Source: a virus. Taken from it: 37,352 nt of DNA. The stretch lies in the IMG/VR virus record IMGVR_UViG_3300049043_000075, positions 1-37,352 of that record. One strand, given 5' to 3'. Below, piece after piece: positions 7,346-25,686 of the stretch. Below the pieces are notes generated by a model, which saw nothing but the letters and a program-made list of their open reading frames with translations, searched no databases and was not told the DNA's origin. The position numbers and the translations under genes were made by a program. Positions within the stretch are counted from its first letter, which is position 1; every line of letters begins with the position of its first letter.

Positions 7346-7901
7346 GTCAGAACCTCACAAACAAACTATGTGGGTCACCCTGCCCGTTTGCAATCATCTC
7401 CTGCCTGCGCTCCTGTGTTACCTGATACCGTAGTTGATCACGCAGCATAATCAAATCATTTAATGCCATTTTTTAATACTACGTCCAGCCACGCTGTACT
7501 CCTGAACCGCCTTGTTTGCAATCATTGAACGGATTGCTGCTTCGACATTATCTAGGTCAATCTGCGCTTGTGAACGTAGTTCAACTCCTGCATTCTGTGT
7601 ACTGAAAATTTTTGCGTACCTCTAACCTACCCTGACCTAGTGTTACCCTATTGGCTCCCTGTGTTGCGTATGCCTGCCAGTAGTAGGTGGTACCGAGCAA
7701 TGTTGCTGTTTGTTGTGCTGTTGCTGTTACCTTCCAACCAGTTAGGTATGGGGTACCAGTGAGCGTGAGATTCTGCGCCCCTCTAATCGCATAGGTCAGC
7801 GTATGGGTGCCAGACGTGATTTGATTACCTAGGTTATCGGTAGCAGAATCATCACGCCATGTTAGGCTGTCACCAGCCACAATAACTGTAGGAATGTTCA
7901 T
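7346..7901 (-). CDS. Head-tail joining protein with gpW-like C-terminus, frameshifted
   Basis: ATG at 7901 overlaps the terminase stop (TAATG). The first open frame (MNIPTVIVAGDSLTWRDDSA) has about 95 residues of beta-rich sequence (TYAIRGAQNLTLTG, YYWQAYATQG, RVTLGQGRLEVRK). Restoring frame near 7605 gives IFSTQNAGVELRSQAQIDLD, NVEAAIRSMIANKAVQEYSV and AGRSIKK, and restoring it again at the A-run near 7470 gives MALNDLIMLRDQLRYQVTQE and a C-terminus SLFVRF ending at 7346. The C-terminal half has the GRS plus L..LRD..R pattern of gpW-type connector proteins and sits in the W position. The N-terminal beta domain resembles a module often fused to it in other phages. The total is about 181 residues. 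Confidence 0.65.
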
Positions 7902-13436: not shown

Positions 13437-13463
13437 GTTAGGTTGACCGTGGCAGATATGCAA

Positions 13464-13484
13464 CTCCTCCTGTGTCCTCAGGAG
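13464..13484 (-). promoter_or_regulatory. Hairpin that could hide an SD-like site near the methyltransferase start
   Basis: On the minus strand CTCCTG and CAGGAG flank a short AGGACA loop, and the right arm runs into AGGAGGAG. Folding would pair the only strong SD-like sequence in front of the methyltransferase gene, which suggests translational control. No functional proof can be seen. Confidence 0.35.
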
Positions 13485-13526
13485 GCGTTTGCGCCACACT
13501 GTTATTTTAACATACTACAATCTGAA

Positions 13527-13549
13527 ACTGCGTTAGTCACCTCCGCAGT
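13527..13549 (-). ncRNA. SD-loop hairpin (copy a)
   Basis: Minus strand: ACTGCG, loop GAGGTGACTAA, CGCAGT. The 6-bp stem differs in sequence from the other copies while the 11-nt loop is identical. It lies just after the stop of the 13556..13855 gene and 27 nt before the first possible start (GTG 13499) of the methyltransferase frame. Confidence 0.65.
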
Positions 13550-13555
13550 ATTATA

Positions 13556-13855
13556 TTACTCAACCTCTGTCACTGCCAGCAACTCCTGAATTGCTACCAC
13601 CCAGCGGATGTTACCGCCAATGGTGAGGTCATGCACGCCATGAGTGATGACGGCGTATAGCTGACGAAACTCGCCACTAGTGACTTCGTAGTAGAATTTA
13701 GAATTGGCAATCTGACGAGTCTTGGAGTTACTCAACTCCAAAGCCTTAGCAATTATCTTGGAGTCGAAATAGATCCTGTCTCGTCCAGGTGCTTGCCAGC
13801 GTTTACCACCAATGGCAATCATTTTCTTAATTAGGGTTTTTTCAGTGGTATTCAT
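13556..13855 (-). CDS. Small hypothetical protein
   Basis: ATG at 13855 with CACACACAAGGAGCCCGCT upstream. It has 99 residues with the N-terminus MNTTEKTLIKKMIAIGGKRW, then RDRIYFDSKIIAKALELSNS with an AKALELSNSKTRQIANSKFY stretch that could be a helix-turn-helix, followed by beta-like YYEVTSGEFRQLYAVI and a hydrophobic C-terminus (IRWVVAIQELLAV). It is flanked on both sides by SD-loop hairpins. No family is recognised. It is probably expressed from the promoter at 14201-14229 together with the gene at 13925..14167. Confidence 0.7.
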   Translation of the reverse strand: MNTTEKTLIKKMIAIGGKRWQAPGRDRIYFDSKIIAKALELSNSKTRQIANSKFYYEVTSGEFRQLYAVITHGVHDLTIGGNIRWVVAIQELLAVTEVE

Positions 13856-13888
13856 AGCGGGCTCCTTGTGTGTGTAATGTGTGTATTC

Positions 13889-13911
13889 TGGCGGTTAGTC
13901 ACCTCCCGCCA
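13889..13911 (-). ncRNA. SD-loop hairpin (copy b)
   Basis: Minus strand: TGGCGG, loop GAGGTGACTAA, CCGCCA. It is followed 33 nt later by the ATG of the 13556..13855 gene. About 50 bases around it, including the CACACACAAGGAG leader, are nearly identical to the copy at 22818-22840 on the other strand. Confidence 0.7.
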
Positions 13912-13924
13912 ACTGACTGGTCAG

Positions 13925-14167
13925 TTAATTGCCAGCGGGAGTAAATACATCCCAATATTGATAAAGGTCAACCCAAAATTTATTACTTGGGTCAATAGAA
14001 CTCAAGTAATAAGTCTTGTCCCCGTGGATGGTTTTGGTTAAAACCCTATCAGAAAGGTTAGAGATAACCCAGTTCATAAACGATTCCCAGTTGGGATAAT
14101 CGTAAATACTTGGGATATTGCAGCAGTCAATGTTGTCTGCGGTGAAGGCGATAATAAATTCAGTCAT
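13925..14167 (-). CDS. Small hypothetical protein, promoter-cassette gene
   Basis: ATG at 14167 with CCCCAGGAGCCGACCG upstream, the common cassette leader. It has 80 residues, is rich in tryptophan and tyrosine (YDYPNWESFMNWVISNLSDR, FWVDLYQYWDVF) and acidic. It has its own strong promoter (TTGACA, 17 bp, TATATT). The amino-acid make-up resembles small phage host-takeover or antirepressor-like proteins in general, but no family is recognised. An SD-loop hairpin follows its stop codon. Confidence 0.7.
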   Translation of the reverse strand: MTEFIIAFTADNIDCCNIPSIYDYPNWESFMNWVISNLSDRVLTKTIHGDKTYYLSSIDPSNKFWVDLYQYWDVFTPAGN

Positions 14168-14200
14168 CGGTCGGCTCCTGGGGTGTGAAACTACTCTTTT

Positions 14201-14229
14201 AATATAGTATTTCTATAAATAGTTGTCAA
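14201..14229 (-). promoter_or_regulatory. Strong sigma-70-type promoter of the 13925..14167 gene
   Basis: Minus strand: TTGACA (14229..14224), 17-bp spacer containing TTTATAGAAATAC, then TATATT (14206..14201). The upstream tract TTTTCTGAAAAACGC is almost identical to that before the promoter at 22427. Divergent to the plus-strand gene at 14312. Confidence 0.85.
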
Positions 14230-14311
14230 GCGTTTTTCAGAAAATTTTTTAGAATTTTGTATTCATAGTCTATGCTATGATCTGACGTAATTCATTCATG
14301 TAGGAGCCACC
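14230..14311 (+). promoter_or_regulatory. Divergent control region, weak rightward promoter
   Basis: The rightward gene at 14312 has TATGCT/TATGAT-like -10 words at about 14271-14281 with a weak TTTAGA or TTGTAT upstream, and a GTAGGAGCCACC binding site. The AT-rich tract between the two promoters is shared. The rightward promoter is much weaker by consensus than the leftward one. Confidence 0.4.
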
Positions 14312-14599
14312 ATGTTTTACCGCTTTCGTGGATACAAAGATTTAACCGACCCAGAGCCCGTATTGCTCCCGTTCATCATCAACATCCAGCACGTCCTATA
14401 CACTGAACAGCGTGATGATTGGCGCTGGGCACGCGCATCACGGTTCAGAGACCAGCCAGTGTTAATCATCTGGCTAAACTGCACCCGTGGTGAAATCAGC
14501 CAGGATGCTGAAACAAATCGGTTTACCCCACATCGCCTGTACCTAGTGGGACGTGAAACAATCGACGAATTTCACGATATTCTGCTACAGTGCAAATAG
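14312..14599 (+). CDS. Small hypothetical protein before the replication gene
   Basis: ATG at 14312 preceded by TAGGAGCCACC. It has 95 residues: MFYRFRGYKDLTDPEPVLLP, INIQHVLYTEQRDDWRWARA, RDQPVLIIWLNCTRGEISQD and a C-terminus GRETIDEFHDILLQC. It looks like a compact alpha/beta protein with an internal strand-rich part, with no recognised family. A strong terminator begins 14 bases after the stop codon, so it forms its own short unit, and the replication gene lies behind that terminator. Confidence 0.7.
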   Translation: MFYRFRGYKDLTDPEPVLLPFIINIQHVLYTEQRDDWRWARASRFRDQPVLIIWLNCTRGEISQDAETNRFTPHRLYLVGRETIDEFHDILLQCK

Positions 14600-14612
14600 G
14601 AAAGCAAAGCTG

Positions 14613-14645
14613 AAGCGCAGTTATTACGACTGCGCTTTTTTTTTC
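14613..14645 (+). terminator. Rho-independent terminator between 14599 and the O-like gene
   Basis: AAGCGCAGT pairs with ACTGCGCTT around a 7-nt loop (TATTACG) and is followed by about nine T. It precedes the replication gene start, so replication-gene expression would need readthrough or antitermination, or a promoter within the region. Confidence 0.85.
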
Positions 14646-14663
14646 ATCGCCTCGGAGTTTGGC

Positions 14664-15286
14664 GTGTACACACAGATACCTAACGAATTATTCGACTACC
14701 TGCCATCGCTCTCTGGAGCAGCCACTAAAATCCTCATGATAGTCGCTCGTCGTACCTACGGATGGCATAAATCTACTGCACAAATATCAATGAATACATT
14801 TGAAGAGCTGACTGGTTTGTCACGTTCTAGTGTTGCCCGTGCAATTACAGAACTAGGCAATGCTGGACTGCTCCATGTTCAACGTCTTAAAATCGATACC
14901 GTTAACGAGGTCAATTGTTACGAAATACTATTGCCTGTGGAAAACTCAAATGAGGGTAGTTCTAAAATGAAACTACCCCTACCAAGTCATCACAGGCTCA
15001 AAACAAGACAGAGCATACAGTACAGGAGTTATCCACAGGAGAGGGGGGTAGTTCTAAAATGAAACTAGGGGTAGTTCTAAAATCGAACTTATATAAAGAA
15101 AAATATAAAGAAAGAAAATTAAAGAAAGGCTCGGATGAGCTTGCGCTTGTGGAGAACCATGATCCAGTGGTTACAGAGGCTAAACCAAACATGGTATGTC
15201 CAACGTGTGGAGTACCATCAACTCAATTTGAATTGCAACGATATGGCTGTTGTCAGTTCTGTTTTGTTAAATCTACGAGACTGTAG
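14664..15286 (+). CDS. Replication initiator, phage O-like, one frameshift
   Basis: GTG at 14664 (VYTQIPNELFDYLPSLSGAA) with CGGAG six bases upstream. The N-terminal 85 residues match the phage replication protein O N-terminal winged helix: TKILMIVARRTYGWHKSTAQ, ISMNTFEELTGLSRSSVARA and ITELGNAGLLHV. The frame breaks near 14978 (one C missing from CCCC); restored, it reads TKSSQAQNKTEHTVQELSTG, continues KERKLKKGSDELALVE and ends with a putative zinc ribbon MVCPTCGVPSTQFELQ...CCQFC at 15286. The total is about 207 residues. The iterons and an AT-rich purine tract lie inside the gene, as in lambda O. It probably binds them and opens the origin. No DnaC-like loader or helicase gene follows. Confidence 0.82.
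14954..15125 (+). other. Putative replication origin inside the O-like gene
   Basis: Three copies of an imperfect palindromic iteron share the core GTAGTTCTAAAAT: 14954-14978 (arms GGGTAGTT/AACTACCC, perfect 8-bp dyad with centre CTAAAATGA), 15046-15070 and 15068-15090. The last two overlap by three bases. They are followed by an AT-rich stretch with strong purine bias (15085-15125, e.g. AAAGAAAGAAAATTAAAG), like the lambda ori with O-binding iterons next to an easily melted tract. A GTTATCCACAGG, which resembles a DnaA box, lies at 15028-15039. Confidence 0.75.
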
Positions 15287-15314
15287 GGCAACATTGTTGC
15301 GCCGAATTTTGTTA

Positions 15315-15339
15315 ACGCTAAGAAGCAATTTCTTAGCGT
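15315..15339 (+). terminator. Hairpin after the O-like gene, possible terminator
   Basis: ACGCTAAGAA pairs perfectly over 10 bp with TTCTTAGCGT around loop GCAAT. It is followed by a pyrimidine-rich CTCTTACTCT instead of a clean T-run, so termination may be weak. It lies 29 nt after the stop of the O-like gene. Confidence 0.55.
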
Positions 15340-15390
15340 CTCTTACTCTACCCTTATCTATAACTAAAACTTATTAGCCTACTCTTATTC

Positions 15391-15599
15391 GTACTACTGT
15401 AACGGCAGTATAGTACAAAAACACCGACAGCTGAAACCCTTATGCAGCCTGGTTTTTAGCCTGTGCCTAGAAATCGTCTGCGGCTGCGAACAAACCCGCA
15501 GGTCCGTAGCTTTACAGTACCTTTTGAAACCTGCGCCCAGCATACGTTTCAGCCATTGCCATATATACACTACCCTATTGCCTTTTTAGTCGTACTATA
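15391..15599. other. Non-coding region with nested inverted repeats between convergent genes
   Basis: No gene is supported in 15287-15594. It contains GTACTA (15391-15396) with TAGTAC (15411-15416); TATAGTAC (15409-15416) with GTACTATA (15592-15599); GCTGAAAC (15430-15437) with GTTTCAGC (15546-15553); and CTGCGG with CCGCAG at about 15479-15502. The TAGTAC arm can pair either locally or with the far arm, which would give two alternative folds. It could be a structured RNA, a replication or packaging feature, or a bidirectional termination region. The stop of the leftward gene lies in the right arm. Confidence 0.45.
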
Positions 15600-16017
15600 G
15601 GCTTTGCTTATCAATGAGCCCATCAATTAGGTTTTTTAGTTCAATGAGATAGTCACGATGACTCCAGCCCTCTAGCTTGCATATGTGCATATCAGTCAGG
15701 ATGTCCTGTAGGAGTTTCTCCTGCGTCTTCTTACGGGCGAGGTTATTCATAGTCAGTCGGTAGTCCTCGTCTATGACTGGACGTGGTGGTTCTGGGTCTG
15801 GCTCTGAGTCTGGTTCTGGTAATGGCAGTTGGATGGATGCCTCATCTTGTGGTTGTCTCTGTGGGTCAGGAGCGAGTGCCCGTAGCTGTTGACCAGTCAG
15901 TAGGTTTTTACCATTGGTGACGAATACGTGACCATGTAACGGTGAACCTGCGTATCTATCAACTACCCAACCATCTGGGATATGGTCGAGTACACTCCAA
16001 TGTTTATAAACGTCCAT
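15595..16017 (-). CDS. Hypothetical protein with proline-rich linker
   Basis: ATG at 16017, starting two bases after the stop of the upstream gene. It has 140 residues: an N-terminal domain MDVYKHWSVLDHIPDGWVVD, RYAGSPLHGHVFVTNGKNLL and TGQQLRAL, then a Pro/Glu/Asp linker (PLPEPDSEPDPEPPRPVIDE), then a helical charged C-terminus. The AGSPLHG..F.TNGK pattern looks like a conserved phage module I have seen without a function. It is expressed with 16019..16801. The proline-glutamate linker suggests two independently folded parts. Confidence 0.7.
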   Translation of the reverse strand: MDVYKHWSVLDHIPDGWVVDRYAGSPLHGHVFVTNGKNLLTGQQLRALAPDPQRQPQDEASIQLPLPEPDSEPDPEPPRPVIDEDYRLTMNNLARKKTQEKLLQDILTDMHICKLEGWSHRDYLIELKNLIDGLIDKQSL

Positions 16018-16018
16018 G

Positions 16019-16801
16019 TTAGTCCTTGCCTTGTAGACGGCGTTGCATGTATGTTTCTAGTTCATCATCAACAGCGTTCTGCAATGATGTTTCAAATATG
16101 TCATTAAAATACTGAGTGAGTAGGTCACTGACTGGGAACTGTGGAGAGTATGATGGTGCGCTACTTAGCCTATTAAATACCAGTACATATCCTCGTGGTA
16201 ATGTTTTGCCTTTAGGTTCACGCTTTGTCTTGGCTTTGGCTTCTACCTTCTTAGTCTTATCAACCCGCATGAATATCCCATCAACGCCACGGATAGTTGC
16301 CTGAAAGAAGCTAGATGCTTTATCTCCAGACAATGCTCTACCTACTGCTGCATACTGAGAGCGTGGCAGGTTGCCATACTGGTTGAATGCAAATTTGTAG
16401 GCACGACCATTTACGTTTACGCTACCAACGTTCTGCGGTATAGCATAACCGACTCCTTTCTGTTCAAATGGTTTTTGTGGACGACTACCACCAGCCGCCA
16501 ATGGTCGCAGATATTCTCCAGCAGGTGTACCACTGACATCCTCACCGAGTTGTTTGAACCCGAATGATATGACATCCATCCTAGTCGGTGTGACTCGTTT
16601 TGGTATTTTGCGTATTGAGCGTTTAGTCCAGTTAGTTGCCCTATCAATGTAGTCATCGGTATTATTCTGGAGGCGTTTTAGTGCTGCACTCGTTGCATCA
16701 TCCAGAGCATTAGCCACCACGAATTTGATACTGCGCTCTTTAAGTTCTGATGTCATTGATGCCATTGCATCTAGGTGATGGTCGAGTTCGATGGTAAACA
16801 T
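16019..16801 (-). CDS. Putative tail-completion or minor tail protein (Z-like)
   Basis: ATG at 16801 (MFTIELDHHLDAMASMTSEL) with GAAGG upstream; the longer frame to 16849 contains a terminator and is rejected. 260 residues. The N-terminal part reads NALDDATSAALKRLQNNTDD, YIDRATNWTKRSIRKIPKRV, followed by GTPAGEYLRPLAAGGSRPQK and FEQKGVGYAIPQ. The NDT..A......Q......RAT.FTK....... and GTPA.(K/E)YL.P...GG.R..K.FE patterns recur in a phage tail or head-tail protein often labelled minor tail Z-like. A basic KVEAKAKTKREPKGK stretch precedes a beta part (YVLVFNRLSSAPSYSPQFPV). It is unusual that it lies outside the morphogenesis operon. Assignment is tentative. Confidence 0.55.
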   Translation of the reverse strand: MFTIELDHHLDAMASMTSELKERSIKFVVANALDDATSAALKRLQNNTDDYIDRATNWTKRSIRKIPKRVTPTRMDVISFGFKQLGEDVSGTPAGEYLRPLAAGGSRPQKPFEQKGVGYAIPQNVGSVNVNGRAYKFAFNQYGNLPRSQYAAVGRALSGDKASSFFQATIRGVDGIFMRVDKTKKVEAKAKTKREPKGKTLPRGYVLVFNRLSSAPSYSPQFPVSDLLTQYFNDIFETSLQNAVDDELETYMQRRLQGKD

Positions 16802-16814
16802 AATGCCTTCATAT

Positions 16815-16841
16815 AAAAAATCCCCACTACAAAGTGGGGAT
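16815..16841 (-). terminator. Rho-independent terminator after 16859..17393
   Basis: Minus strand: ATCCCCACT pairs with AGTGGGGAT (9 bp, 4-nt loop) followed by TTTTTT. It ends the 17393 transcription unit and lies 14 nt before the start of the next gene at 16801, which must then depend on readthrough or another promoter. Confidence 0.88.
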
Positions 16842-16858
16842 ACACTCAAGCTATCTTA

Positions 16859-17393
16859 CTATTCTACATCATGATCATATCGGGTAACAATGGCATCCAT
16901 CGCCTGACGCACTGCCATGTGGTAGCTGTCAGTCTCTATCTGGTCAAGGAGGATGGAGTAGTAAGGAGTCTTTAAGGTATGCCAACAGGTTGGCATTTTG
17001 TTCAGGACGTTGGGATGTTTGATATAAAGCATTAGGCGTTTTATTATCATGTTCGAGATAATGTTCAAACATGTCCAGCGTTTCATCAATAGAATTGATA
17101 GACGTAAATTTGCTGGATGTGTAGTAACGAAACAGTTTACGCAATGGCACAATTGACCATCGCTGCACATTAGCCCATCGCTCCGACCAGTAGCCTAGGT
17201 CTGTGAACAAGTCACGTTTTAATGCTGCCTGAAACGCTTCATCATCAATTGACTGGTCAACATCCAAATAGATGGATAGGTCGGTTGGGTCAACCCACAC
17301 TACACCCTCTAGGTCATAGTCATCAACCCACACTATCCATTCAGCAGCGGTCAGTCTGGCACGATTGCATAGCGTTACGTCAACTCGTTTCAT
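16859..17393 (-). CDS. Hypothetical protein, one frameshift
   Basis: ATG at 17393 (MKRVDVTLCNRARLTAAEWI) with GGAG six bases upstream. An indel near 16960 separates the main frame (to NLLAYLK) from the C-terminal frame (TPYYSILLDQIETDSYHMAV, then RQAMDAIVTRYDHDVE at 16859). About 178 residues when joined. The N-terminal third is acidic and beta-like (EWIVWVDDYDLEGVVWVDPT, DLSIYLDVDQSIDDEAF), the rest helical. No family is recognised. It is the first gene leftward of a divergent promoter region and ends at a strong terminator, so it may be a control gene opposite the rightward operon. Confidence 0.6.
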
Positions 17394-17475
17394 GTTTATC
17401 TCCAATGTGTACAAATTATATTGACACTATCTACAGTAACATAGTATCGTATACAAATAGTTTACCGAGATAGAT
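17394..17475. promoter_or_regulatory. Divergent promoter region for 17393 (minus) and 17476 (plus)
   Basis: Plus strand: TTGACA at 17421-17426 with TAGTAT (15-bp spacer) or TATCGT (18-bp) as -10. Minus strand: TATAAT at about 17420-17415 with a weak -35. The two promoters overlap, so they probably exclude each other, an arrangement typical of a phage control switch. No clear operator repeat is seen beyond TGTACA/GTATAC words. Confidence 0.55.
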
Positions 17476-17718
17476 ATGCTAACAGGCTATCAGATATGGG
17501 ACAACAGAACGGACAGACCTGGTGGATATGCCACAGTCAGGCATACTCCAGAGGGAGCAATAATGGACATCGAGGTGGTGAGTTGCACCATCCCAAACGC
17601 TTATGCAGAATTATGGGTAGCGACTACCCATCAGCTTTGCAGTCAGCATTATCTAGCTGGCGTAATTTTTAATCATGAGGGGACGACAGTCTCCGTCAGC
17701 GAAGTTACACCATTTTAG
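17476..17718 (+). CDS. Small hypothetical protein, first gene of rightward operon
   Basis: ATG at 17476, 80 residues (MLTGYQIWDNRTDRPGGYAT, then VSCTIPNAYAELWVATTHQL). Beta-rich with a single cysteine in each half. Only a weak GAGATAGAT-type ribosome site precedes it. It is followed after eight bases by the next gene. No domain is recognised. As the first gene behind the divergent promoter it should be expressed early. Confidence 0.6.
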   Translation: MLTGYQIWDNRTDRPGGYATVRHTPEGAIMDIEVVSCTIPNAYAELWVATTHQLCSQHYLAGVIFNHEGTTVSVSEVTPF

Positions 17719-17726
17719 GTACAGAT

Positions 17727-18074
17727 ATGTACAAATACGATTTGATTGATGGCTCAGTATGCGAGCTCCGTAGTATTGGCTACGAAACCACGGCTGGCAG
17801 TGCTAGGGATAGGTGGGTGGTTGGCATTGGTCAGGACTATGGGTACTATGCCCTACGTTCTAACAGTGGCAGCAGCGTGTGGGAGATACAGACTCCACGC
17901 AAAATTAAACTAATGTCGGAGCGTCTCCATGATGCAGCCATGTTGTATCTGCGGTCACATCCCCATGACCATGAGCCATGGGCTGATGCGATGATTGCAG
18001 ACAGCAGGAAACTGGTTCACATACTGTACCTAGCCAGCAAGCCACCACTAACTAACACAGGAGAATTAACATGA
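17727..18074 (+). CDS. Hypothetical protein
   Basis: ATG at 17727, 115 residues. The N-terminal half is beta-like (MYKYDLIDGSVCELRSIGYE, RWVVGIGQDYGYYALRSNSG), the C-terminal half helical (LHDAAMLYLRSHPHDHEPWA, MIADSRKLVHILYLAS). Its stop overlaps the next start by 4 nt (ATGA), showing translational coupling. No family is recognised. Confidence 0.65.
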   Translation: MYKYDLIDGSVCELRSIGYETTAGSARDRWVVGIGQDYGYYALRSNSGSSVWEIQTPRKIKLMSERLHDAAMLYLRSHPHDHEPWADAMIADSRKLVHILYLASKPPLTNTGELT

Positions 18075-18406
18075 CTAAGATGGCTCCCCACGTATACATT
18101 GATGGACTCGGCGTTTGTGTCGAGTGTCTGCTGGAGGTTGACCTATTAACCCATGGTCAATACAAACGGCTGGCATTAGTCAGCTATTCAGTTAGCAATG
18201 GCATCTGGTCGCCATGCAGGATTGGCATTGCTGGACAACAATCCGATGGTGATTGGTATGCAGTTGAGCCGTCTAAGGTACGCACATGGATGTATCAGCA
18301 TAAACAATACCTCGCCAAAAACAGGGGGCAGATGCCTGATGCAGTATTAGTTGAGTTTCGTGCCTATGAACGGTTACTCAACGCATACAAGGAGCTGAAC
18401 TGCTAA
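18071..18406 (+). CDS. Hypothetical protein
   Basis: ATG at 18071 with CAGGAGAATTAAC upstream. 111 residues: MTKMAPHVYIDGLGVCVECL (C..C pair), YKRLALVSYSVSNGIWSPCR and a helical end DAVLVEFRAYERLLNAYKEL. It shares a general layout with the previous gene: a strand-rich domain, then helices. No family is recognised. It is coupled to the wHTH gene, which begins two bases after its stop codon. Confidence 0.65.
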   Translation: MTKMAPHVYIDGLGVCVECLLEVDLLTHGQYKRLALVSYSVSNGIWSPCRIGIAGQQSDGDWYAVEPSKVRTWMYQHKQYLAKNRGQMPDAVLVEFRAYERLLNAYKELNC

Positions 18407-18408
18407 CG

Positions 18409-19146
18409 ATGGAGTTGACACGGGAGCATATCGAGATATACGAAACAATTGTTGAGTTATCCAAAACACAATATGCGTATACAACGTTGGTCTGTATGCA
18501 CATGGGTATCAACCGTAGTTGCATATATCGACGTATCGAGGATATGCGTCGGCTTGGATGGTTGCGTGAGGTGCGGGGTAGGGCTGAACATTCAGACCGT
18601 CGCAGAAACTATCTGCTACCACTAAAAACATTGGAGGAGCTGCCTACTGTTACCCGTTATCGCAGGGAGCGCAATGACCCAATGGAGATTCTGCATATCG
18701 TATATATCGTGATATGTGAATTTATCGCTGGTGGTAACACATCTCCAACCATCCAAGAGATAGCTGCTAGGGCATGTTACCAGAGCAGTGCAGTTGACAT
18801 GGCTGTTAAAACTCTATGCCACTATGGCTGCGTCTCACGAACGTGTGCATGTCATCGGAGTATCGAGAAATCGTGTTACGTCTACAGTGTACAATTCGAC
18901 AAAACAGGTGAATTTATGAGGGCATATAAAAAACGGTTGGTTGATGTTCATGCAGCATTGCAGACGTTTATCTGCGAACGTGGCTATGCGCCATCAACGG
19001 AGGACATTGGCAAAATACTGCATCTGTCTCCCGACTCAATCAAGACTTATTTCAGACAGTTAGAGGAGTATGGCGTGCTAGTCATGCCACGCAATAACAA
19101 CGGCGTTATGGAGGTTCATCCGTTATATGACAACCGAAAATCATGA
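18409..19146 (+). CDS. Three-winged-helix DNA-binding protein
   Basis: ATG at 18409 with AAGGAGCTGAACTGCTAAC upstream. 245 residues with three winged-helix-like segments: residues about 1-65 (YAYTTLVCMHMGINRSCIYR, RIEDMRRLGWLREV), about 85-150 (FIAGGNTSPTIQEIAARACY, QSSAVDMAVKTLCHYGCV) and about 175-235 (FICERGYAPSTEDIGKILHL, SPDSIKTYFRQLEEYGVLV). The second and third resemble the LexA N-terminal DNA-binding domain (F....G..PS..EI...L..S...V...L..L...G.L). No protease domain follows. It is the best candidate for a transcriptional regulator in the rightward operon. Function is inferred from fold pattern only. Confidence 0.7.
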   Translation: MELTREHIEIYETIVELSKTQYAYTTLVCMHMGINRSCIYRRIEDMRRLGWLREVRGRAEHSDRRRNYLLPLKTLEELPTVTRYRRERNDPMEILHIVYIVICEFIAGGNTSPTIQEIAARACYQSSAVDMAVKTLCHYGCVSRTCACHRSIEKSCYVYSVQFDKTGEFMRAYKKRLVDVHAALQTFICERGYAPSTEDIGKILHLSPDSIKTYFRQLEEYGVLVMPRNNNGVMEVHPLYDNRKS

Positions 19147-19345
19147 CAGGATGGTTGCAGCGTATGAAAAATATGCTAATGCCAAACAACTGCGAGTAAC
19201 AATATCATCTGTCACCTATGACAAAATTATATCGTTACTAACTGAGTTAGAGGAGGGCGGCAGCATTCGTGCCAGACAATTGCGTGCCGAATTGTCATGG
19301 ACATTGTGTGACCAACTGCGTGGGAGGGTGACAGGTGCCGATTGA
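19127..19345 (+). CDS. Small helical hypothetical protein
   Basis: ATG at 19127 lies inside the end of the wHTH gene. 72 residues, mostly helical and charged: MTTENHDRMVAAYEKYANAK, TYDKIISLLTELEEGGSIRA, RQLRAELSWTLCDQLRGRV. It overlaps its neighbours on both sides (20 nt and 11 nt), as in tightly packed phage operons. No family is recognised. Confidence 0.6.
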   Translation: MTTENHDRMVAAYEKYANAKQLRVTISSVTYDKIISLLTELEEGGSIRARQLRAELSWTLCDQLRGRVTGAD

Positions 19346-19691
19346 TATTGATGATTTCTCAGACATTATCGCTGGACTACAGGTGGCATTTCGACTACTC
19401 GGTTGGTCGCTGGATACACCACGAATTAGTGGCTACTTACTAAAATGCCATGAACGATATGTTGAGTCATATCCTGAATATGCACATCTGTTCCCACTGC
19501 CCTGGACGAGGTTGGCACACTTGCCAGATCCAGTATTGATACAGTTAGCGTTAAAAATTACACAAGGAGGTTTCATTGAGGAGAAAATTCGGAGAGCCGA
19601 TCACTATTCGCCTGCCCGTCTGGCAGGACAGGATAGTGCGACTCAAGGGACTGCGGTGGTTGAGGTCGTTAGTAGAGGAGCGGATCAATGA
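19335..19691 (+). CDS. Hypothetical protein
   Basis: GTG at 19335 with GGGAGGGTGACAG upstream. 118 codons: MPIDIDDFSDIIAGLQVAFR, YLLKCHERYVESYPEYAHLF and LPDPVLIQLALKITQGG are protein-like. The last 40 residues overlap a second gene in another frame and look less natural, so an indel near 19575 may hide an earlier stop. No family is recognised. Confidence 0.5.
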   Translation: MPIDIDDFSDIIAGLQVAFRLLGWSLDTPRISGYLLKCHERYVESYPEYAHLFPLPWTRLAHLPDPVLIQLALKITQGGFIEEKIRRADHYSPARLAGQDSATQGTAVVEVVSRGADQ

Positions 19692-19776
19692 ATTTTCTAG
19701 ATCAGATGTTCACAGAGTCAGAGTTGACGATGGAGGACAATTTCGAGCTGGAGAAGACAAGACTAGCATTGACTAG
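19576..19776 (+). CDS. Small ribbon-helix-helix-like protein
   Basis: TTG start at 19576 preceded by a near-perfect AAGGAGG with five bases between. The first 38 residues (MRRKFGEPITIRLPVWQDRI, VRLKGLRWLRSLVEERIN) resemble a CopG/RHH DNA-binding protein: a strand with alternating I.IRLP followed by two helices. The C-terminal tail overlaps the next gene and could be an artefact of an indel. DNA-binding regulators of this size are usual in phage early operons. Confidence 0.5.
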   Translation: MRRKFGEPITIRLPVWQDRIVRLKGLRWLRSLVEERINEFSRSDVHRVRVDDGGQFRAGEDKTSID

Positions 19777-19882
19777 CAGCTCCCATGCTGATGTAGTTGA
19801 TGTAGCGATACGGGTCTATAAACTGTATCTACGTCATAGACGGATGAACAATTGGTTAATCAAACAGAGGCTATTAGGATGA
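19688..19882 (+). CDS. Small hypothetical protein, possibly ribbon-helix-helix
   Basis: ATG at 19688 (MNFLDQMFTESELTMEDNFE) or 19730 (MEDNFELEKTRLALTSSSHA). The segment LEKTRLALTSSSHADVVDVA, then IRVYKLYLRHRRM has the strand-helix-helix pattern of ribbon-helix-helix proteins. It overlaps both neighbours. The start is not settled by a clear binding site. Confidence 0.5.
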   Translation: MNFLDQMFTESELTMEDNFELEKTRLALTSSSHADVVDVAIRVYKLYLRHRRMNNWLIKQRLLG

Positions 19883-20460
19883 CACAACAACCCGAATTCA
19901 ATGACCCAGCCTATCATCAATGGCTATACGAGCAATATCTGGATAGCGTTGCAACTGTTCAGCAAAGTAGCCAACCGACACGGATACAAGATACACCAAC
20001 CCGTGTGCGTGAACCGATGCCACCATACCGCAGCGTTGAATATACGCCACCAGAAGCACGTAAACTGTCGCACAAGCGGTACAACAAATTGACACGCCAG
20101 CGTTATACTGATTGGCGGATGGTATTAGGTTGGGTATGCGTTGGAGGTGCTGCTATGGCATCGTTCAACCTACTGCTGCATGGCATTAAAACAGTATGCC
20201 CAGCACCAACAAAAACGAGTACACAAGCAGTCATTGCACCACCGAAACCCAAACCCAAACCCAGTCCACGGGTTATCCAACCACAGGAGATGCCTATCAT
20301 CAAAGTGCCGTCACTGCCACCACCACCCAAAGTTTTGGGTGTCAATATCAATGGCAAAACCCAATGGGTATCGACAAACACGCCATACGGCAAACGTCTG
20401 TTGGCAATGTACTACAGATATGCACCTAATTTAGTTAACTATATCCCAGGAGTCAAATAA
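19879..20460 (+). CDS. Single-pass membrane protein with proline-rich outer part
   Basis: ATG at 19879 with ATTAGG just upstream. 193 residues. Residues 1-75 are hydrophilic (probably cytoplasmic) and basic near the membrane (KLSHKRYNKLTRQRYTDWR). One transmembrane segment lies near 78-98 (MVLGWVCVGGAAMASFNLLL). Then a Pro/Lys-rich stretch (APPKPKPKPSPRVIQPQ) and a C-terminal NINGKTQWVSTNTPYG... part face the periplasm. The topology (N-in, one segment, Pro-rich spacer) resembles TonB-like or spanin-like envelope proteins, but no spanin partner or TonB C-terminal domain is recognised. The end overlaps the next gene (TAATG). Confidence 0.65.
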   Translation: MTQQPEFNDPAYHQWLYEQYLDSVATVQQSSQPTRIQDTPTRVREPMPPYRSVEYTPPEARKLSHKRYNKLTRQRYTDWRMVLGWVCVGGAAMASFNLLLHGIKTVCPAPTKTSTQAVIAPPKPKPKPSPRVIQPQEMPIIKVPSLPPPPKVLGVNINGKTQWVSTNTPYGKRLLAMYYRYAPNLVNYIPGVK

Positions 20461-20656
20461 TGAACGATACTCAAATGACCGTCCCTGCCATCGTGTACCC
20501 TGATACCTTCATCACACGACGTGATTTTTCGCAGCTCATGCACTAAATGGGTTACTCCAGGGGCTATATAGCGATCAGCCAAAACGGCTGGACTATATCA
20601 TCAATGAAGCGGTTAGGTTAGCCGATGACCTGATCGGTAAATTGGATGAGGAGTAA
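20460..20656 (+). CDS. Small phage protein, one frameshift
   Basis: ATG at 20460 overlaps the previous stop. It starts MNDTQMTVPAIVYPDTFITR RD. One T is missing from the run at 20522-20526; restored, the frame reads FFAAHALNGLLQGLYSDQPK and RLDYIINEAVRLADDLIGKL, ending DEE at 20656. About 65 residues. The pattern ITRRD.FAA.ALNGLL......D.....A..LAD.L...L is common in small phage and prophage proteins of unknown function. Without correction it would end after about 28 codons. Confidence 0.65.
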
Positions 20657-20657
20657 T

Positions 20658-20750
20658 ATGTTAGCCACCATTGCAAGTATTATTCTCACGATATTAGTAT
20701 GTCTGCTAATAGTCAGCGTCTTGTTCTTTTTGTTCTCGTCGCCGCTTTAA
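20658..20750 (+). CDS. Small membrane peptide
   Basis: ATG at 20658 with GAGGAGTAAT upstream, 30 residues, nearly all hydrophobic (MLATIASIILTILVCLLIVS, then VLFFLFSSPL). One transmembrane helix. It could be a holin-like or accessory membrane peptide; no assignment is possible. Confidence 0.5.
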   Translation: MLATIASIILTILVCLLIVSVLFFLFSSPL

Positions 20751-20789
20751 CTGATTACACACACACATTATTACTAGAGCCCTACTACC

Positions 20790-20882
20790 ATGGACAATTA
20801 CATTTATCTGTACATCATCACTGAACTATCCAGCACGTTGCTGCTGCTGTTGGTTGCCTGCTGGATATACGGCAGACGGTAA
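20790..20882 (+). CDS. Small membrane peptide
   Basis: ATG at 20790, 30 residues (MDNYIYLYIITELSSTLLLL, then LVACWIYGRR): one transmembrane segment and a basic C-terminus, which would stay in the cytoplasm. No clear ribosome binding site is present. It lies just before the operon terminator and pairs with the previous membrane peptide. Confidence 0.4.
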   Translation: MDNYIYLYIITELSSTLLLLLVACWIYGRR

Positions 20883-20957
20883 CGTTCGAGTAACAATCCG
20901 TTGTACTGAAACCTTTCAACTGCTAACATAAATAGGTGAACTCAGTGATAGTACATG

Positions 20958-20992
20958 CCCGTGGACAAACATCATTTGTCCATGGGTTTTTT
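20958..20992 (+). terminator. Strong terminator of the rightward operon
   Basis: CCCGTGGACAAA pairs with TTTGTCCATGGG (12 bp with one G-T pair, loop CATCA), followed by TTTTTT. It ends the transcript of 17476-20882. The 75 bases between the last gene and the hairpin show nothing else. Confidence 0.9.
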
Positions 20993-21049
20993 AATTGTCA
21001 CTATATGATTGCACACGATCTATACTATGTATAGAACTCTGTGCATACC

Positions 21050-21453
21050 ATGGGAGAAACCGTTGACCTAGCCACGTTGTTAGCTATTGTTGAGCGTATC
21101 GAAGGCAAAATCGATGCGCTTCACCTTGAGGTCAACAAATCCATGCGTCCCAATCGGTCAGACCTGCGAAAGCTACACTATGAAACCTATCGCAAAATAC
21201 TCCATCAGGCATACGAATATAACGGGCAGTTGCATTGTCCATGCTGCAACAAACAAACGGCTGATACTGAATGGCACGTTGACCATTGGGCACCTATAGC
21301 GGTGTACAACGACAAAACGGTTGGCTAATTTGCAGCGAGTGCAATTACAAACTGCTGGCACCAGGGTCACTAATTCGTAGTCAATATGCAATGGCATTCA
21401 CCCAGTTTCACGCCATTGGCGATATGTTGGAGCGACTGGAGGCGAGCAAGTGA
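21050..21453 (+). CDS. HNH endonuclease, one frameshift
   Basis: ATG at 21050 (MGETVDLATLLAIVERIEGK). The N-terminal 45 residues are a coiled helix (IDALHLEVNKSMRPNRSDLR), followed by the nuclease: LHCPCCNKQTADTEWHVDHW with the CxxC and the catalytic VDH. An indel near 21310 breaks the frame; restored, it ends NGWLICSECNYKLLAPGSLI and MLERLEASK at 21453. The second CxxC (ICSECN) completes the zinc knuckle of the HNH/McrA-like fold. Near packaging genes HNH enzymes assist cos cutting, but here it stands alone 11 kb from the terminase and may be a homing-type or accessory nuclease. About 135 residues. Confidence 0.78.
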
Positions 21454-21472
21454 CGGCTGCCACCACCTGACG

Positions 21473-21484
21473 GGGAGCGCTCCC
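21473..21484. repeat. Perfect 12-bp palindrome GGGAGCGCTCCC
   Basis: A short perfect palindrome directly after the HNH gene and before an AT-rich tract. It could be a recognition or cleavage site or a terminator stem without a T-run. Nothing more is supported. Confidence 0.4.
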
Positions 21485-21548
21485 AGAACGCCGAAAATAA
21501 TTTTCTCAAAAAATTTTCAAAAAATTTTCAAAAATCTTTAAAAACCCC

Positions 21549-21577
21549 TTGACAGCCCCATAGAAATACGATATATT
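21549..21577 (+). promoter_or_regulatory. Strong promoter of the 21615 gene
   Basis: TTGACA (21549-21554), 17-bp spacer with ATAGAAATAC, TATATT (21572-21577). Preceded by tandem AAAATTTTC(A) runs (about 21490-21540) that would act as an UP element. Same family as the promoters at 10595, 14201 and 22427. Confidence 0.88.
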
Positions 21578-21614
21578 ATAAGAGTAAAGAGAAACACACA
21601 AGGAGCCGACCGCA

Positions 21615-21911
21615 ATGATGACCCCAGAACGTTTACGAAGAGTACTGCAACAACACCGATGGCGAAACCGCCATCCCCGCCATCTTAAATGCACTCACCA
21701 AATGGGTCGCAGCAAGTTACAACAAAGTAGACTACGAATTTGCGGTACTCGAAAAAACTTTTGGATTCCAGTAGCGGATCTTGAACTCAATGATGACATC
21801 CTCGATTTATTGATTGAAGACGATATCATAAAAGTCAACCGCAAACTACAGGCAACCTTCTTGATCACAGATGTGATCAGAATAGTCAGGATATTCGAAG
21901 AAGGTGAATAA
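21615..21911 (+). CDS. Small hypothetical protein with two compensating indels
   Basis: ATG at 21615 after the cassette leader CACACAAGGAGCCGACCGCA. The literal frame is open for 98 codons, but its middle is unnatural (arginine/histidine-rich, HRWRNRHPRHLK). Reading one base later between about 21655 and 21770 gives a protein-like NTDGETAIPAILNALTKWVA and ASYNKVDYEFAVLEKTFGFQ, after which the original frame resumes with ADLELNDDILDLLIEDDIIK and VNRKLQATFLITDVIRIVRI. So one inserted and one deleted base cancel out. The reconstructed product is an acidic helical protein of about 98 residues. Function is unknown. Two tandem terminators follow. Confidence 0.65.
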   Translation: MMTPERLRRVLQQHRWRNRHPRHLKCTHQMGRSKLQQSRLRICGTRKNFWIPVADLELNDDILDLLIEDDIIKVNRKLQATFLITDVIRIVRIFEEGE

Positions 21912-21917
21912 AAACAG

Positions 21918-21943
21918 CCCCCACCCCACGGTGGGGGTTTTTT
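21918..21943 (+). terminator. Terminator 1 after the 21615 gene
   Basis: CCCCCACC pairs perfectly with GGTGGGGG (8 bp, loop CCAC), followed by TTTTTT, seven bases after the stop codon. Confidence 0.92.
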
Positions 21944-21955
21944 GTGCGCATCCGC

Positions 21956-21978
21956 CCCCACCCCACGGTGGGGTTTTT
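21956..21978 (+). terminator. Terminator 2, tandem copy
   Basis: CCCCACC pairs with GGTGGGG (7 bp, same loop CCAC), followed by TTTTT. It is a near copy of the hairpin 38 bases upstream, so it arose by local duplication, and it leads directly into the GC-rich block. Confidence 0.88.
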
Positions 21979-22340
21979 GTGCCCATTCGCCACCGCCCCA
22001 CGGGGAGGGGAGGGGAGGGCACCGCCACCCCCACCGCCGTCGCCACCCCGTCGCCCTGGGAGGGGCACCACCACCGCACCCCCTGCCGCTGCCGCTGCCG
22101 CCACCGCCCTGGGGAGGGCACCCGTCGCCCCACGGGGAGGGGAGGGCACCCCCTGCCGTCGCCGTCGCCCCACGGGGAGGGGAGAGGCACCACCACCAGA
22201 GGGCACCCGCACCCCCACCCCCACCAGAGGGGCACCACCACCCCCACGGGGAGGGCACCAGGAGGGCACAGGAGGGGGCGAGGGCACCTACACCCCACCA
22301 CCGACGGAGAGGGGCACTGCAGGGGCACAGACGGGCAGAT
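21979..22340. repeat. GC-rich degenerate hairpin-repeat block with G-quadruplex motif
   Basis: About 360 bases of extreme GC content in an otherwise moderate genome. At least six degenerate copies of a unit like GCCCCACGGGGAGGGGAGG or GCCCTGGGGAGGGC, each able to form a short hairpin, start near 21994, 22054, 22103, 22129, 22171 and 22238, mixed with CACC/GCC-rich filler. The run at 22002-22019 is four G-tracts separated by single A, a textbook G-quadruplex motif. All six frames are open merely because stop codons are rare in such DNA; the translations are low-complexity Pro/Gly/His/Arg and do not look like proteins. It lies between two terminators and the next promoter and is classed as non-coding. 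Confidence 0.75.
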
Positions 22341-22426
22341 GGACGCATCCGCTCCTCACCCCTACCGATACGACGGCACTGTCACTACCCCGAAAAAAAT
22401 TTCTCAAAAAAATTTCTGAAAAACGC

Positions 22427-22455
22427 TTGACAACTAATTAGAACTACTATACATT
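22427..22455 (+). promoter_or_regulatory. Promoter of the 22489 gene cluster
   Basis: TTGACA (22427-22432), 17-bp spacer holding TTAGAACTAC, then TACATT (22450-22455). The upstream TTTCTGAAAAACGC and the first bases after TTGACA repeat the promoter at 14201-14229. It probably drives the genes from 22489 to 24463. Confidence 0.82.
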
Positions 22456-22488
22456 GATAAATGTAGACACACACACAGGAGCCGACCG

Positions 22489-22812
22489 ATGAACTACTCA
22501 CCCCGCTGCCGCTACTGCCCTTACCTCCCTGCTAAGTCCGTTGACCGCTGGGGCAACGAGGTTTTGGCTGACGGTAGTCTCAAACTACTCGACGGCTACC
22601 ATGTGGTAGCCTGGCGCGCCATGGATGACGGCGCCTTCACCGAGGAGGTGTTCATCCCGTTCGCAGACCTCGGGTATCCAAAACCCGAACGATGGGTATG
22701 GTTTCTGGACTACTGTCCGTTCACCGAGTACGTTGGTGGGTACTGGACATCCAGTATTCCTGCCGAGAGTCCACTCTGGCAGCGCTGGTTAACGGACTGG
22801 TACTCTAACTAG
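22489..22812 (+). CDS. Small hypothetical protein, promoter-cassette gene
   Basis: ATG at 22489 behind CACACACAGGAGCCGACCG. 107 residues, rich in aromatic residues: MNYSPRCRYCPYLPAKSVDR with a CxxC, YHVVAWRAMDDGAFTEEVFI, ERWVWFLDYCPFTEYVGGYW. It is beta-like and acidic. No family is recognised. An SD-loop hairpin follows six bases after the stop codon. Confidence 0.7.
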   Translation: MNYSPRCRYCPYLPAKSVDRWGNEVLADGSLKLLDGYHVVAWRAMDDGAFTEEVFIPFADLGYPKPERWVWFLDYCPFTEYVGGYWTSSIPAESPLWQRWLTDWYSN

Positions 22813-22817
22813 TCAGT

Positions 22818-22840
22818 TGGCGGGAGGTGACTAACCGCCA
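22818..22840 (+). ncRNA. SD-loop hairpin (copy c)
   Basis: TGGCGG, loop GAGGTGACTAA, CCGCCA, 32 nt before the ATG at 22873. Sequence and flanks match copy b at 13889-13911. Confidence 0.7.
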
Positions 22841-22872
22841 GAATACACACAGTACACACACAAGGAGCCGAC

Positions 22873-23295
22873 ATGACTGAACAACTAGCTTGCAACCTTA
22901 GTACCCCAGCACATATTTTAGTAGAGTTATCGACTGATGAAGACTCTTGGGTTCGGAGGAGCGTTGCTCGCAATCCTAATACACCAGTAGAAGTGTTGGT
23001 AAAGCTTTCGACTGATACAGACTATTGGGTGCGACAAGGCGTTGCTCGCAATCCTAATACCCCAGTGGATGTGTTAGTCACGCTATCGAGTAATCCGAAC
23101 TACCACATTCGGCAAGGCGTTGGCAGAAATCCCAACACCCCAGTAGATGTGTTAGTCACGCTATCCAATGATAAAGAGTGGAGTGTTCGGAGGAGCGTTG
23201 CCCAGAATGCCAACACGCCAGTCGATGCACTGGTAACGCTATCCCATGATAGCAACTGGATCGTCCGTGAATTTGCACGGGCGTTGATTCATTAA
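22873..23295 (+). CDS. Leucine-rich-variant / HEAT-like repeat protein
   Basis: ATG at 22873 behind CACACACAAGGAGCCGAC. 140 residues made almost entirely of five to six repeats of 24 residues with the consensus NPNTPV.VLV.LS.D....VR..VAR: for example ARNPNTPVEVLVKLSTDTDY, GRNPNTPVDVLVTLSNDKEW, AQNANTPVDALVTLSHDSNW. This is the variant leucine-rich repeat (LRV), which stacks into a right-handed solenoid used for protein binding. DNA repeats are also close in sequence, pointing to recent expansion. A lone small LRV protein in a phage accessory cassette suggests binding to a host protein, but the target is unknown. Confidence 0.82.
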   Translation: MTEQLACNLSTPAHILVELSTDEDSWVRRSVARNPNTPVEVLVKLSTDTDYWVRQGVARNPNTPVDVLVTLSSNPNYHIRQGVGRNPNTPVDVLVTLSNDKEWSVRRSVAQNANTPVDALVTLSHDSNWIVREFARALIH

Positions 23296-23298
23296 CTC

Positions 23299-23322
23299 GC
23301 TGGCGGAGGTGACTAACGCAGC
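23299..23322 (+). ncRNA. SD-loop hairpin (copy d)
   Basis: GCT-G-GCG, loop GAGGTGACTAA, CGC-AGC: a stem of three plus three pairs with one bulged G. It lies 24 nt before the ATG at 23347 and directly after the stop of the LRV gene. Confidence 0.6.
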
Positions 23323-23346
23323 AATTCACACACAAGGAGATATACC

Positions 23347-23775
23347 ATGACTACCATCAACATAAACTTTTACGCACTCGCAGCCCTGGTGGGCGATGAA
23401 TATGATGGATGGACACCACCATCTGTTGTAGAGGGGTGGATTGATACACTCGTAGCTGGTCACGTTCTGACCAGTCCAGCGGACGTGTTTGCAGATACTC
23501 GCAACAAACGGTCTATTAACCTGACACTCATTGGGGATATTGACCAGTTCTTGTCTGATGATTGGGTATACATTATACCTGCTGGGACTAGGGTTTCGTT
23601 GGTAGTAACGGAGCCAGCTGAACATCCACAAACCACGGACCATACAACTGGGCGGATGTGGATCCTCCGGGGATATGTTCAGCCACCAACTCGGTGGCGT
23701 AGTGACGGTTCATTAACAACAAGCGGGAGGGTACTAACCGCTATCGTACACAAACACAAACAGGAGATACCATGA
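23347..23775 (+). CDS. Hypothetical protein, end uncertain
   Basis: ATG at 23347 behind CACACAAGGAGATATACC. Open for 142 residues: MTTININFYALAALVGDEYD, GWTPPSVVEGWIDTLVAGHV, RSINLTLIGDIDQFLSDDWV, YIIPAGTRVSLVVTEPAEHP. The last part of the frame runs through an SD-loop hairpin and the leader of the next gene, whereas in the neighbouring cassettes the gene stops before the hairpin. An indel near 23660-23700 probably hides an earlier stop. No family is recognised. Confidence 0.6.
   Translation: MTTININFYALAALVGDEYDGWTPPSVVEGWIDTLVAGHVLTSPADVFADTRNKRSINLTLIGDIDQFLSDDWVYIIPAGTRVSLVVTEPAEHPQTTDHTTGRMWILRGYVQPPTRWRSDGSLTTSGRVLTAIVHKHKQEIP
23722..23742 (+). ncRNA. SD-loop hairpin (copy e)
   Basis: AGCGG, loop GAGGGTACTAA, CCGCT, 29 nt before the ATG at 23772. 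The loop differs from the others only by two bases exchanged (GT for TG). Confidence 0.55.
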
Positions 23776-23999
23776 GTATTTACGATTACCAAGACGATTT
23801 ATACGCCACCTACGTTGGTGACGTGCCAGTTGAATTCTTCGTCGGCGAATTCGATGGCGACATCGAGGCAGCCGTTGACAACCTCATCAGTGAGGAGTGG
23901 TGGTCATCTACCTCTGGCAGTGCCCACGATTGGACACCACCAGATGACTTGCGCCCGTCGTTGATTGCGTACTGTGAGCGCAGACTCGAAAATGGATGA
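23772..23999 (+). CDS. Small acidic hypothetical protein
   Basis: ATG at 23772 behind AAACACAAACAGGAGATACC. 75 residues: MSIYDYQDDLYATYVGDVPV, EFFVGEFDGDIEAAVDNLIS, EEWWSSTSGSAHDWTPPDDL. Strongly acidic with few basic residues before the C-terminus, a composition seen in DNA-mimic and anti-restriction proteins, but no such family is recognised. The end overlaps the next gene. Confidence 0.65.
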   Translation: MSIYDYQDDLYATYVGDVPVEFFVGEFDGDIEAAVDNLISEEWWSSTSGSAHDWTPPDDLRPSLIAYCERRLENG

Positions 24000-24189
24000 A
24001 GCACTGAAGCGGGCGCAATACAAATACGAGCGCACCGAAAAAGCCAAGGCTAGACGTAAGCGTTACCTAGAGAATTGTTCTCCTGAACAATTAGAGCGAA
24101 TACGGGAGCAGAAACGCCTCTGGGCACAACGCAACCGTCAGAAAAAACAACAACAACAAACAGATACTACAGGAGAGTCCCATGCTTAA
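23992..24189 (+). CDS. Small basic helical protein
   Basis: ATG at 23992, overlapping the previous stop by eight bases. 65 residues, charged and helical: MDEALKRAQYKYERTEKAKA, RRKRYLENCSPEQLERIREQ, KRLWAQRNRQKKQQQQ. Its repeated ARRKRYLEN-like segment is typical of small nucleic-acid-binding phage proteins. It overlaps the next start by eight bases. Function is unknown. Confidence 0.6.
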   Translation: MDEALKRAQYKYERTEKAKARRKRYLENCSPEQLERIREQKRLWAQRNRQKKQQQQTDTTGESHA

Positions 24190-25110: not shown

Positions 25111-25677
25111 TTATCCTCGATAGTGGTATAGTCGATTAATTGCGTTTCGGTCGGCAGTATGCCTAGTTTTTTTAGCCCATCCAATCCATGTGGGCATGAC
25201 ATAGCATTGAGTAGTTTTGCTGGAGATGGTCTACCATTAGCAATAATTTCAGACTGTATTTCACGGAAAATATTACCGCAAAATCAATGCCTGCATTTAA
25301 CTCAAACATCTGATCATCAGTATAGCCAGGTAAACGAGTTGGTTCTACCTCTGCATATAGTTCAGCCAGTATGTTTTGAATGACCTCAATCTCACGTTTG
25401 TTCAATGCAAACGCATGAGCCTGATCCTCCTGCACTGACTCAATTTCTACTATCTCAGCTTCGAGGATATAGTTGTTCATGCAATGGTGCACCAGTATCA
25501 CGGAGGTATTGCAATTCAGCGTGTTTACCGCCACAGTTTCAGATCAGCTACCTGCTCCAATGCGGCGGCACGTAGCCGACCGTTAAGAAAACCCTTCAGT
25601 GTCTTGATACGCTCCCATGGAGTAGAGCCTAGAACTTGATAGCGATAATTAAATTCAGTATTGAGTGGTTGTGCCAT
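25111..25677 (-). CDS. Phage tail-associated protein, several frameshifts
   Basis: ATG at 25677 (MAQPLNTEFNYRYQVLGSTP). At least three indels split it, but the pieces form one protein: WERIKTLKGFLNGRLRAAAL, EQVADLKLWRKHAELQYLRD, EIVEIESVQEDQAHAFALNK, REIEVIQNILAELYAEVEPT, RLPGYTDDQMFELNA, REIQSEIIANGRPSPAKLLN and GLKKLGILPTETQL. The reconstructed length is about 190 residues, mostly helical. The combination EPTR.PGYTD.QMFE.NA and ....RPSPAKL.NAMS is a pattern I associate with conserved proteins downstream of tail fibres in diverse siphoviruses. Function is unknown. Confidence 0.6.
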
Positions 25678-25686
25678 TGTAATTAC

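Follow-up and report, generated by a model that had tools for sequence, protein, structure and literature searches.

What purpose could be served by a short hairpin that recurs five times between the genes of one phage? The question is raised by IMG/VR record IMGVR_UViG_3300049043_000075, a 37,352-base virus sequence (the whole stretch analysed, hereafter the window) encoding a tailed phage, as judged from a large terminase assigned by PHROGs and from tail-like open reading frames (ORFs) recognised by reading. An initial annotation had described five intergenic hairpins with a constant loop and compensating stem changes, and a check of the sequence located all five as described, on the strand of the flanking genes. 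The element consists of an 11-nucleotide (nt) loop, GRRGUNACUAA, on a variable stem of 5–10 base pairs (bp) that is usually closed by G-C. The early suggestion of a selected RNA element was borne out by covarying stems and by copies in other genomes: this is a selected, structure-constrained element of the sense-strand RNA, intercistronic and recurrent in unrelated phages.

The association between loop and stem was assessed in 13 carrier records. Perfect GRRGTNACTAA loops were found in stems of at least 5 bp in 28 of 54 cases, compared with 5 of 409 for loops one mismatch off and 0.5–0.7% for more distant loops; as the records had been chosen for having hits, roughly one copy in each is an ascertained member of the 28, but the contrast persists when those are removed. 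A shuffled-loop control gave 24/87 versus 3/195. Both this control and the comparison of perfect with one-mismatch loops are free of any bias from selection for pairing.

An alignment of 39 sequences, extended from a first set of 27, disclosed stems of changing sequence and preserved pairing, in which all seven pairs change on both sides. The covariation score was 0.974, compared with 0.231 after shuffling and at most 0.26 when slid, and 89% versus 52% of cells were paired, although the score is inflated, because pairing (5 of 6) was a criterion for choosing the aligned sequences. Of the 39 copies in the alignment, 37 close the stem with G-C, one with C-G and one with T-A. Strong members have G-U but no A-C in the stem interior, an observation on small numbers that points to sense-strand RNA over DNA.

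Within the loop, N6 was A, G or T, never C, among 49 mapped copies, and the occurrence of the variants GAAGATACTAA, GAGGATACTAA and GAGGGTACTAA indicates that the fifth loop position is not absolute. We propose a fold in which G1-A11 and R2-A10 would form purine (non-Watson-Crick) pairs, followed by R3-U9 and G4-C8 beneath a UNA triloop. The constant loop positions agree with this arrangement, and R3-U9 appeared as A-U in 21 sequences and as G-U in 18. ViennaRNA instead returned a GUNA tetraloop, which requires an R3-C8 pair and fails when R3 is A.

Further copies with covarying stems, on which the initial annotation had made its reading depend, were found in other genomes. The same hairpin is present in more than 20 viral contigs of several unrelated tailed-phage lineages and in one cyanobacterial contig, from Stenomitos rutilans, the sole carrier with a known host. 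Carriers were retrieved by pattern scans of IMG/VR and one scan of GTDB species genomes; these searches kept the loop fixed and in most cases asked for a Shine-Dalgarno (SD) sequence close by, so variants and other contexts are under-sampled. The many stem-less matches from relaxed pattern scans (L014, L044 and others) were excluded. One family of carriers comprises AT-rich genomes of 57–151 kb (G001, G003, G006, G007, G008) that share terminase and other proteins among themselves, and a second group is related by its capsid (G011, G012, G401, G403 and, distantly, L082). Further carriers are G002 (GC 61%), G010, G405, G406, G407, G408, G402 and L066. Several carrier genomes hold two to seven copies each. 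No convincing homologue of the window proteins was found in any other carrier, nor any protein common to all carriers; by megablast, bases 1–25000 of the window had no INPHARED match, and the same was true of two relatives.

A scan of ~85,000 prokaryote species genomes returned four loci, only one of which looks genuine. Among 386 cyanobacterial genomes only S. rutilans gave a strong match, in a search of weak sensitivity that scored the top few candidates per genome. Isolated phages of Nodularia, Aphanizomenon, Nostoc, Planktothrix and Phormidium had no copy, and two weak matches in Microcystis phage LMM01 (E 0.2–0.6) were taken as chance. The statement that no described family fits also held: in Rfam 15 nothing matched the window at the gathering threshold, or positions 13450–24000 with hits allowed up to E = 1, and a full-text literature search for the loop strings yielded unrelated papers only. 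Mimicry of rRNA was discarded as well; E. coli 16S and 23S rRNA contain two-mismatch matches only, none seen as an equivalent hairpin. Separately, contig L019 (362–5508) carries GACCTTTGGAGGTTACTAAC seven times between genes, each time stem-less and in most cases directly past the stops of minus-strand genes and antisense to them; this is an unrelated repeat sharing the 11-mer.

Comparison of the mapped copies revealed a regular placement between genes. Of 44 copies, 30 have a loop that begins 11–17 nt past the stop of the upstream gene; in most of 45, the loop ends 17–39 nt ahead of the next start (typically ~30 nt). Context-mapped copies are sense to the adjoining genes. Because ORF calling relied on a simple script, the starts of some genes are uncertain. 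Genes that follow the element have an SD of their own, with a mean match of 5.0 versus 3.5, a difference partly biased by the choice of start. Taking the general size of a ribosome footprint, these distances suggest that the hairpin fits between the footprints of the terminating and the initiating ribosome. The upstream gene is remote at G006 positions 54207 and 56353 and at G007 positions 81351 and 85024, where the distance to the start is still 28–36 nt.

Within the window, exact GAGGTGACTAA occurs four times versus 0.019 expected, and the consensus loop within at least five contiguous pairs occurs three times versus 0.0075 in Markov-1 sequence. A 27-nt covariance model, built partly from the same copies, recovered all five (Table 1). 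Because 65 bp from the stop region to the SD are 95% identical, the copies at 13911 and 22818 are not independent and count once, leaving four independent stems in the window alone. The gap of 24–33 nt between hairpin and start that was first reported holds for four copies (33, 32, 24 and 29 nt); the start is unclear for the copy at 13549, located 6 nt past the stop of ORF 13855–13556, where a GTG at 13499 lies 27 nt on without an SD. On the longest-ORF reading, the copy at 23722 falls inside ORF 23347–23775, and a TAA stop lies just upstream in another frame. An apparent overlapping mini-ORF running from GTG to ATGA in some window copies was dropped, being absent from the remaining copies.

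Table 1. Hairpin copies, duplicated block and adjoining ORFs in the window.
Feature	Positions	Strand	Description
Hairpin copy 1	13527..13549	-	Stem ACTGCG/CGCAGT, loop GAGGTGACTAA; covariance model 33.4 bits
Hairpin copy 2	13889..13911	-	Stem TGGCGG/CCGCCA, loop GAGGTGACTAA; covariance model 33.2 bits
Hairpin copy 3	22818..22840	+	Stem TGGCGG/CCGCCA; stem and 65-bp surroundings as copy 2; covariance model 33.2 bits
Hairpin copy 4	23299..23322	+	Stem GCT(G)GCG/CGCAGC with bulged G, loop GAGGTGACTAA; covariance model 20.8 bits
Hairpin copy 5	23722..23742	+	Stem AGCGG/CCGCT, variant loop GAGGGTACTAA; covariance model 26.9 bits
65-nt intergenic block, 95% shared with 22805-22869	13860..13924	-	Inverted repeat I1; hairpin, CA-rich linker and SD copied together
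65-nt intergenic block, second copy	22805..22869	+	Inverted repeat I1
ORF between copies 2 and 1, 99 aa	13556..13855	-	Own SD AAGGAG; no PHROG match
ORF upstream of copy 2, 80 aa	13925..14167	-	No PHROG match
ORF upstream of copy 3, 107 aa	22489..22812	+	No PHROG match
ORF between copies 3 and 4, 140 aa	22873..23295	+	Leucine-rich-variant-like repeats; own SD
ORF after copy 4, 142 aa as longest ORF	23347..23775	+	3' end overlaps copy 5
ORF after copy 5, 75 aa	23772..23999	+	Own SD AGGAG

Several other features of the window were recorded. On the minus strand, a further stretch able to form a hairpin and bearing a strong GGAGG lies past copy 1 (13447–13500), near the uncertain start of a ParB/methyltransferase-like gene. 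Positions 21917–22290 form a GC-rich low-complexity tract of CCGCCACC/GGGGAGGG units that opens with a nearly identical pair of terminator-like hairpins, each with a T-run at its end. The large terminase (7901–9791) reads as two adjoining ORFs (8862–9791 and 7901–8845) and the capsid region (3776–5329) as overlapping pieces; assembly frameshifts or gene decay are candidate explanations for the split reading frames. A tail-fibre-like gene contains five 141-nt repeats (25661–26524), and the non-repeat part of its protein weakly matches Synechococcus phage proteins.

To follow the element among related genomes, we gathered relatives of the G011 group by capsid homology, a group in which it sits 3' of the major-capsid gene (PHROG 371). 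This post-capsid gap holds the element in L352 and L355, whereas L353 (major capsid protein 90% identical to that of G011) and L354 (82%) have unrelated hairpins of 14–16 bp in the same place, with flanks similar to those of the element (ACCAC...TACAAA). In more distant capsid relatives the gap holds UUCG, GAAA, GTAA and other loops, some followed by U-runs. Post-capsid 60-mers folded with z < -2 relative to mononucleotide shuffles in 37 of 50 cases. Across L352–L431 a strong hairpin lies past the major-capsid gene in most relatives, with stems and loops often exchanged (UUCG, GNRA, CTAG-like and the 11-nt loop). The exchange within this slot, together with its stable folding, indicates that a hairpin is selected at the post-capsid locus and that GRRGUNACUAA is one of several caps. 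Related large phages mostly lack the element at orthologous genes; on these comparisons, it is gained and lost among them. Stems are often common to the copies of one genome, and this, in combination with gain and loss, points to copying followed by compensatory drift.

The reading we favour, at a little under an even chance, is that this intercistronic RNA element acts at the border between cistrons, as a structural barrier or as a stabiliser. The hairpin would hold a stable structured barrier in the polycistronic mRNA, standing outside the footprints of both the upstream terminating and the downstream initiating ribosome, where it could shield the end of the upstream message against 3' exonucleases, keep each ribosome-binding site open, or do both. 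The loop would be a specific compact fold capping a short stem, possibly held by a host factor, and translation of the downstream gene would use that gene's own SD rather than the loop. Indirect support is provided by the exchange of the element for other stable hairpins in the post-capsid slot. Overall, the element looks like an undescribed mRNA signal protecting or separating neighbouring genes. Some observations weigh against such a role. Were it a mere structural cap, the loop would hardly be so constant and so rare, since UUCG or GNRA would serve equally; this constancy, combined with a single genuine-looking locus in ~85,000 species genomes, suggests a specific binding partner. In addition, several large-phage copies, with no nearby upstream gene but a start 28–36 nt downstream, favour a role in the 5' leader over protection of a 3' end.

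A binding partner is central to a more tentative explanation, modelled by analogy on T4 gp43 or lambda-N-type factors that read a loop on a variable stem. The hairpin would here be an operator or recruitment site, at which an RNA-binding host factor (or a small unrecognised phage protein) recognises GRRGUNACUAA and acts as a switch on the translation or processing of the cistron downstream. This could account for a constant loop on free stems, for two to seven copies in several genomes, for rarity outside a set of phages, and for a position ~30–40 nt ahead of the start, near the 'about 40 bases upstream' given for the operator of T4 gene 43 (PMC3014915). It is harder to reconcile with the lack of a protein common to all carriers or of convincing homologues of the window in them, with close relatives that swap the element for unrelated hairpins at the post-capsid locus, and with most orthologous genes in related large phages, which are without it. 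That the hairpin represents an undescribed class of phage RNA operator, a multi-copy plug-in control site of unrelated phages whose 11-nt loop is recognised by a dedicated host factor of wide conservation, seems to us rather unlikely.

We consider it improbable that the hairpin is a partial terminator or attenuator between cistrons, or part of a promoter-terminator cassette. A stable hairpin past a gene end would suit termination, and the post-capsid hairpins of many relatives are followed by U-runs; however, no U-run follows the stem in the copies examined, where CA/AU-rich linkers lead directly to the SD and start, and upstream there is no enrichment of TATAAT-like sites (0.26 versus 0.43 per 44 nt).

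The initial annotation had suggested a site for ribosome standby or capture, where the SD-like loop sequence would hold the 30S subunit near the true start. In the window this appeared reasonable, as GGAGGTGA is present in four of the five copies and the hairpin lies upstream of a single-stranded linker and an SD. Across the family, however, the SD match is not kept: GGAAGUAA, GGGAGUUA and GGAAGUUA are as common as GGAGGUGA, and the loops GAAGUAACUAA, GGAGUUACUAA, GAAGUUACUAA and others break pairing with the anti-SD. The reading of the loop as an extended SD site is not supported, GGAGGUGA being one variant of a purine-tolerant loop in which R3 and N6 vary, whereas CUAA is invariant yet unable to pair with the anti-SD. 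Conserved complementarity to the anti-SD is not found in the family, and because that match is not the conserved part we rate capture through the SD as very improbable.

Equally doubtful is a DNA-level element, whether a recombination or cassette-exchange site or a single-strand nuclease hairpin, that spreads genes or intergenic blocks: the 65-bp block is duplicated between unrelated flanking genes, stems are often shared within one genome and positions are gained and lost among relatives, but ordinary recombination can also yield such a duplication, and the sense orientation of context-mapped copies, the interior G-U without A-C in strong members and the constant distance to stop and start argue against it.

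As an RNA motif the element is sharply defined; Rfam lacks it, and its covariation across unrelated phages is strong. If its loop binds a host factor, a new question arises as to the role of that factor in phage messenger control; if the loop is only structural, it would be a new compact fold used by phages like UUCG or GNRA caps.

Several known systems share part of this description. The Start-Associated Sequence (SAS) of cluster K mycobacteriophages, a 13-bp constant GGGATAGGAGCCC located 3–7 bp from the start, is likewise a short repeat with SD-like letters ahead of many small non-structural phage genes, and for the inverted repeats of the associated ESAS, pairing in RNA is reportedly not supported (PMC3203893); in contrast, the stem described here covaries, lies ~25 nt from the start and differs in sequence. 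The promoter-stem-loop cassettes (PeSL) of T4-type phages (Arbiol 2010 and Comeau 2014), as far as they are described where cited in PMC4503421, are also repeated intergenic stem-loop cassettes copied within genomes; unlike these, the present element has no early promoter or terminator tract that we could find, and its constant part is the loop, not a promoter. The translational operator of T4/RB69 gene 43 is a leader hairpin ~40 nt ahead of the start whose loop bases are recognised (PMC3014915). Its position is similar and loop binding is a candidate property of our element, but the gene 43 operator is a single autoregulatory site overlapping the ribosome-binding site, whereas the element has a different loop and occurs in several copies, ahead of unrelated genes, beside an independent SD. 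The nearest known kind is the CUUCGG intergenic hairpins of T4 (Tuerk et al. 1988), which, in the account given where cited in PMC8948821, are similarly intercistronic, present in many copies per phage, and built of a constant loop on freely varying complementary stems. Compared with these, the hairpins described here are rare, occur in unrelated uncultured phages and carry an 11-nt GRRGUNACUAA in place of CUUCGG; the loop is new.

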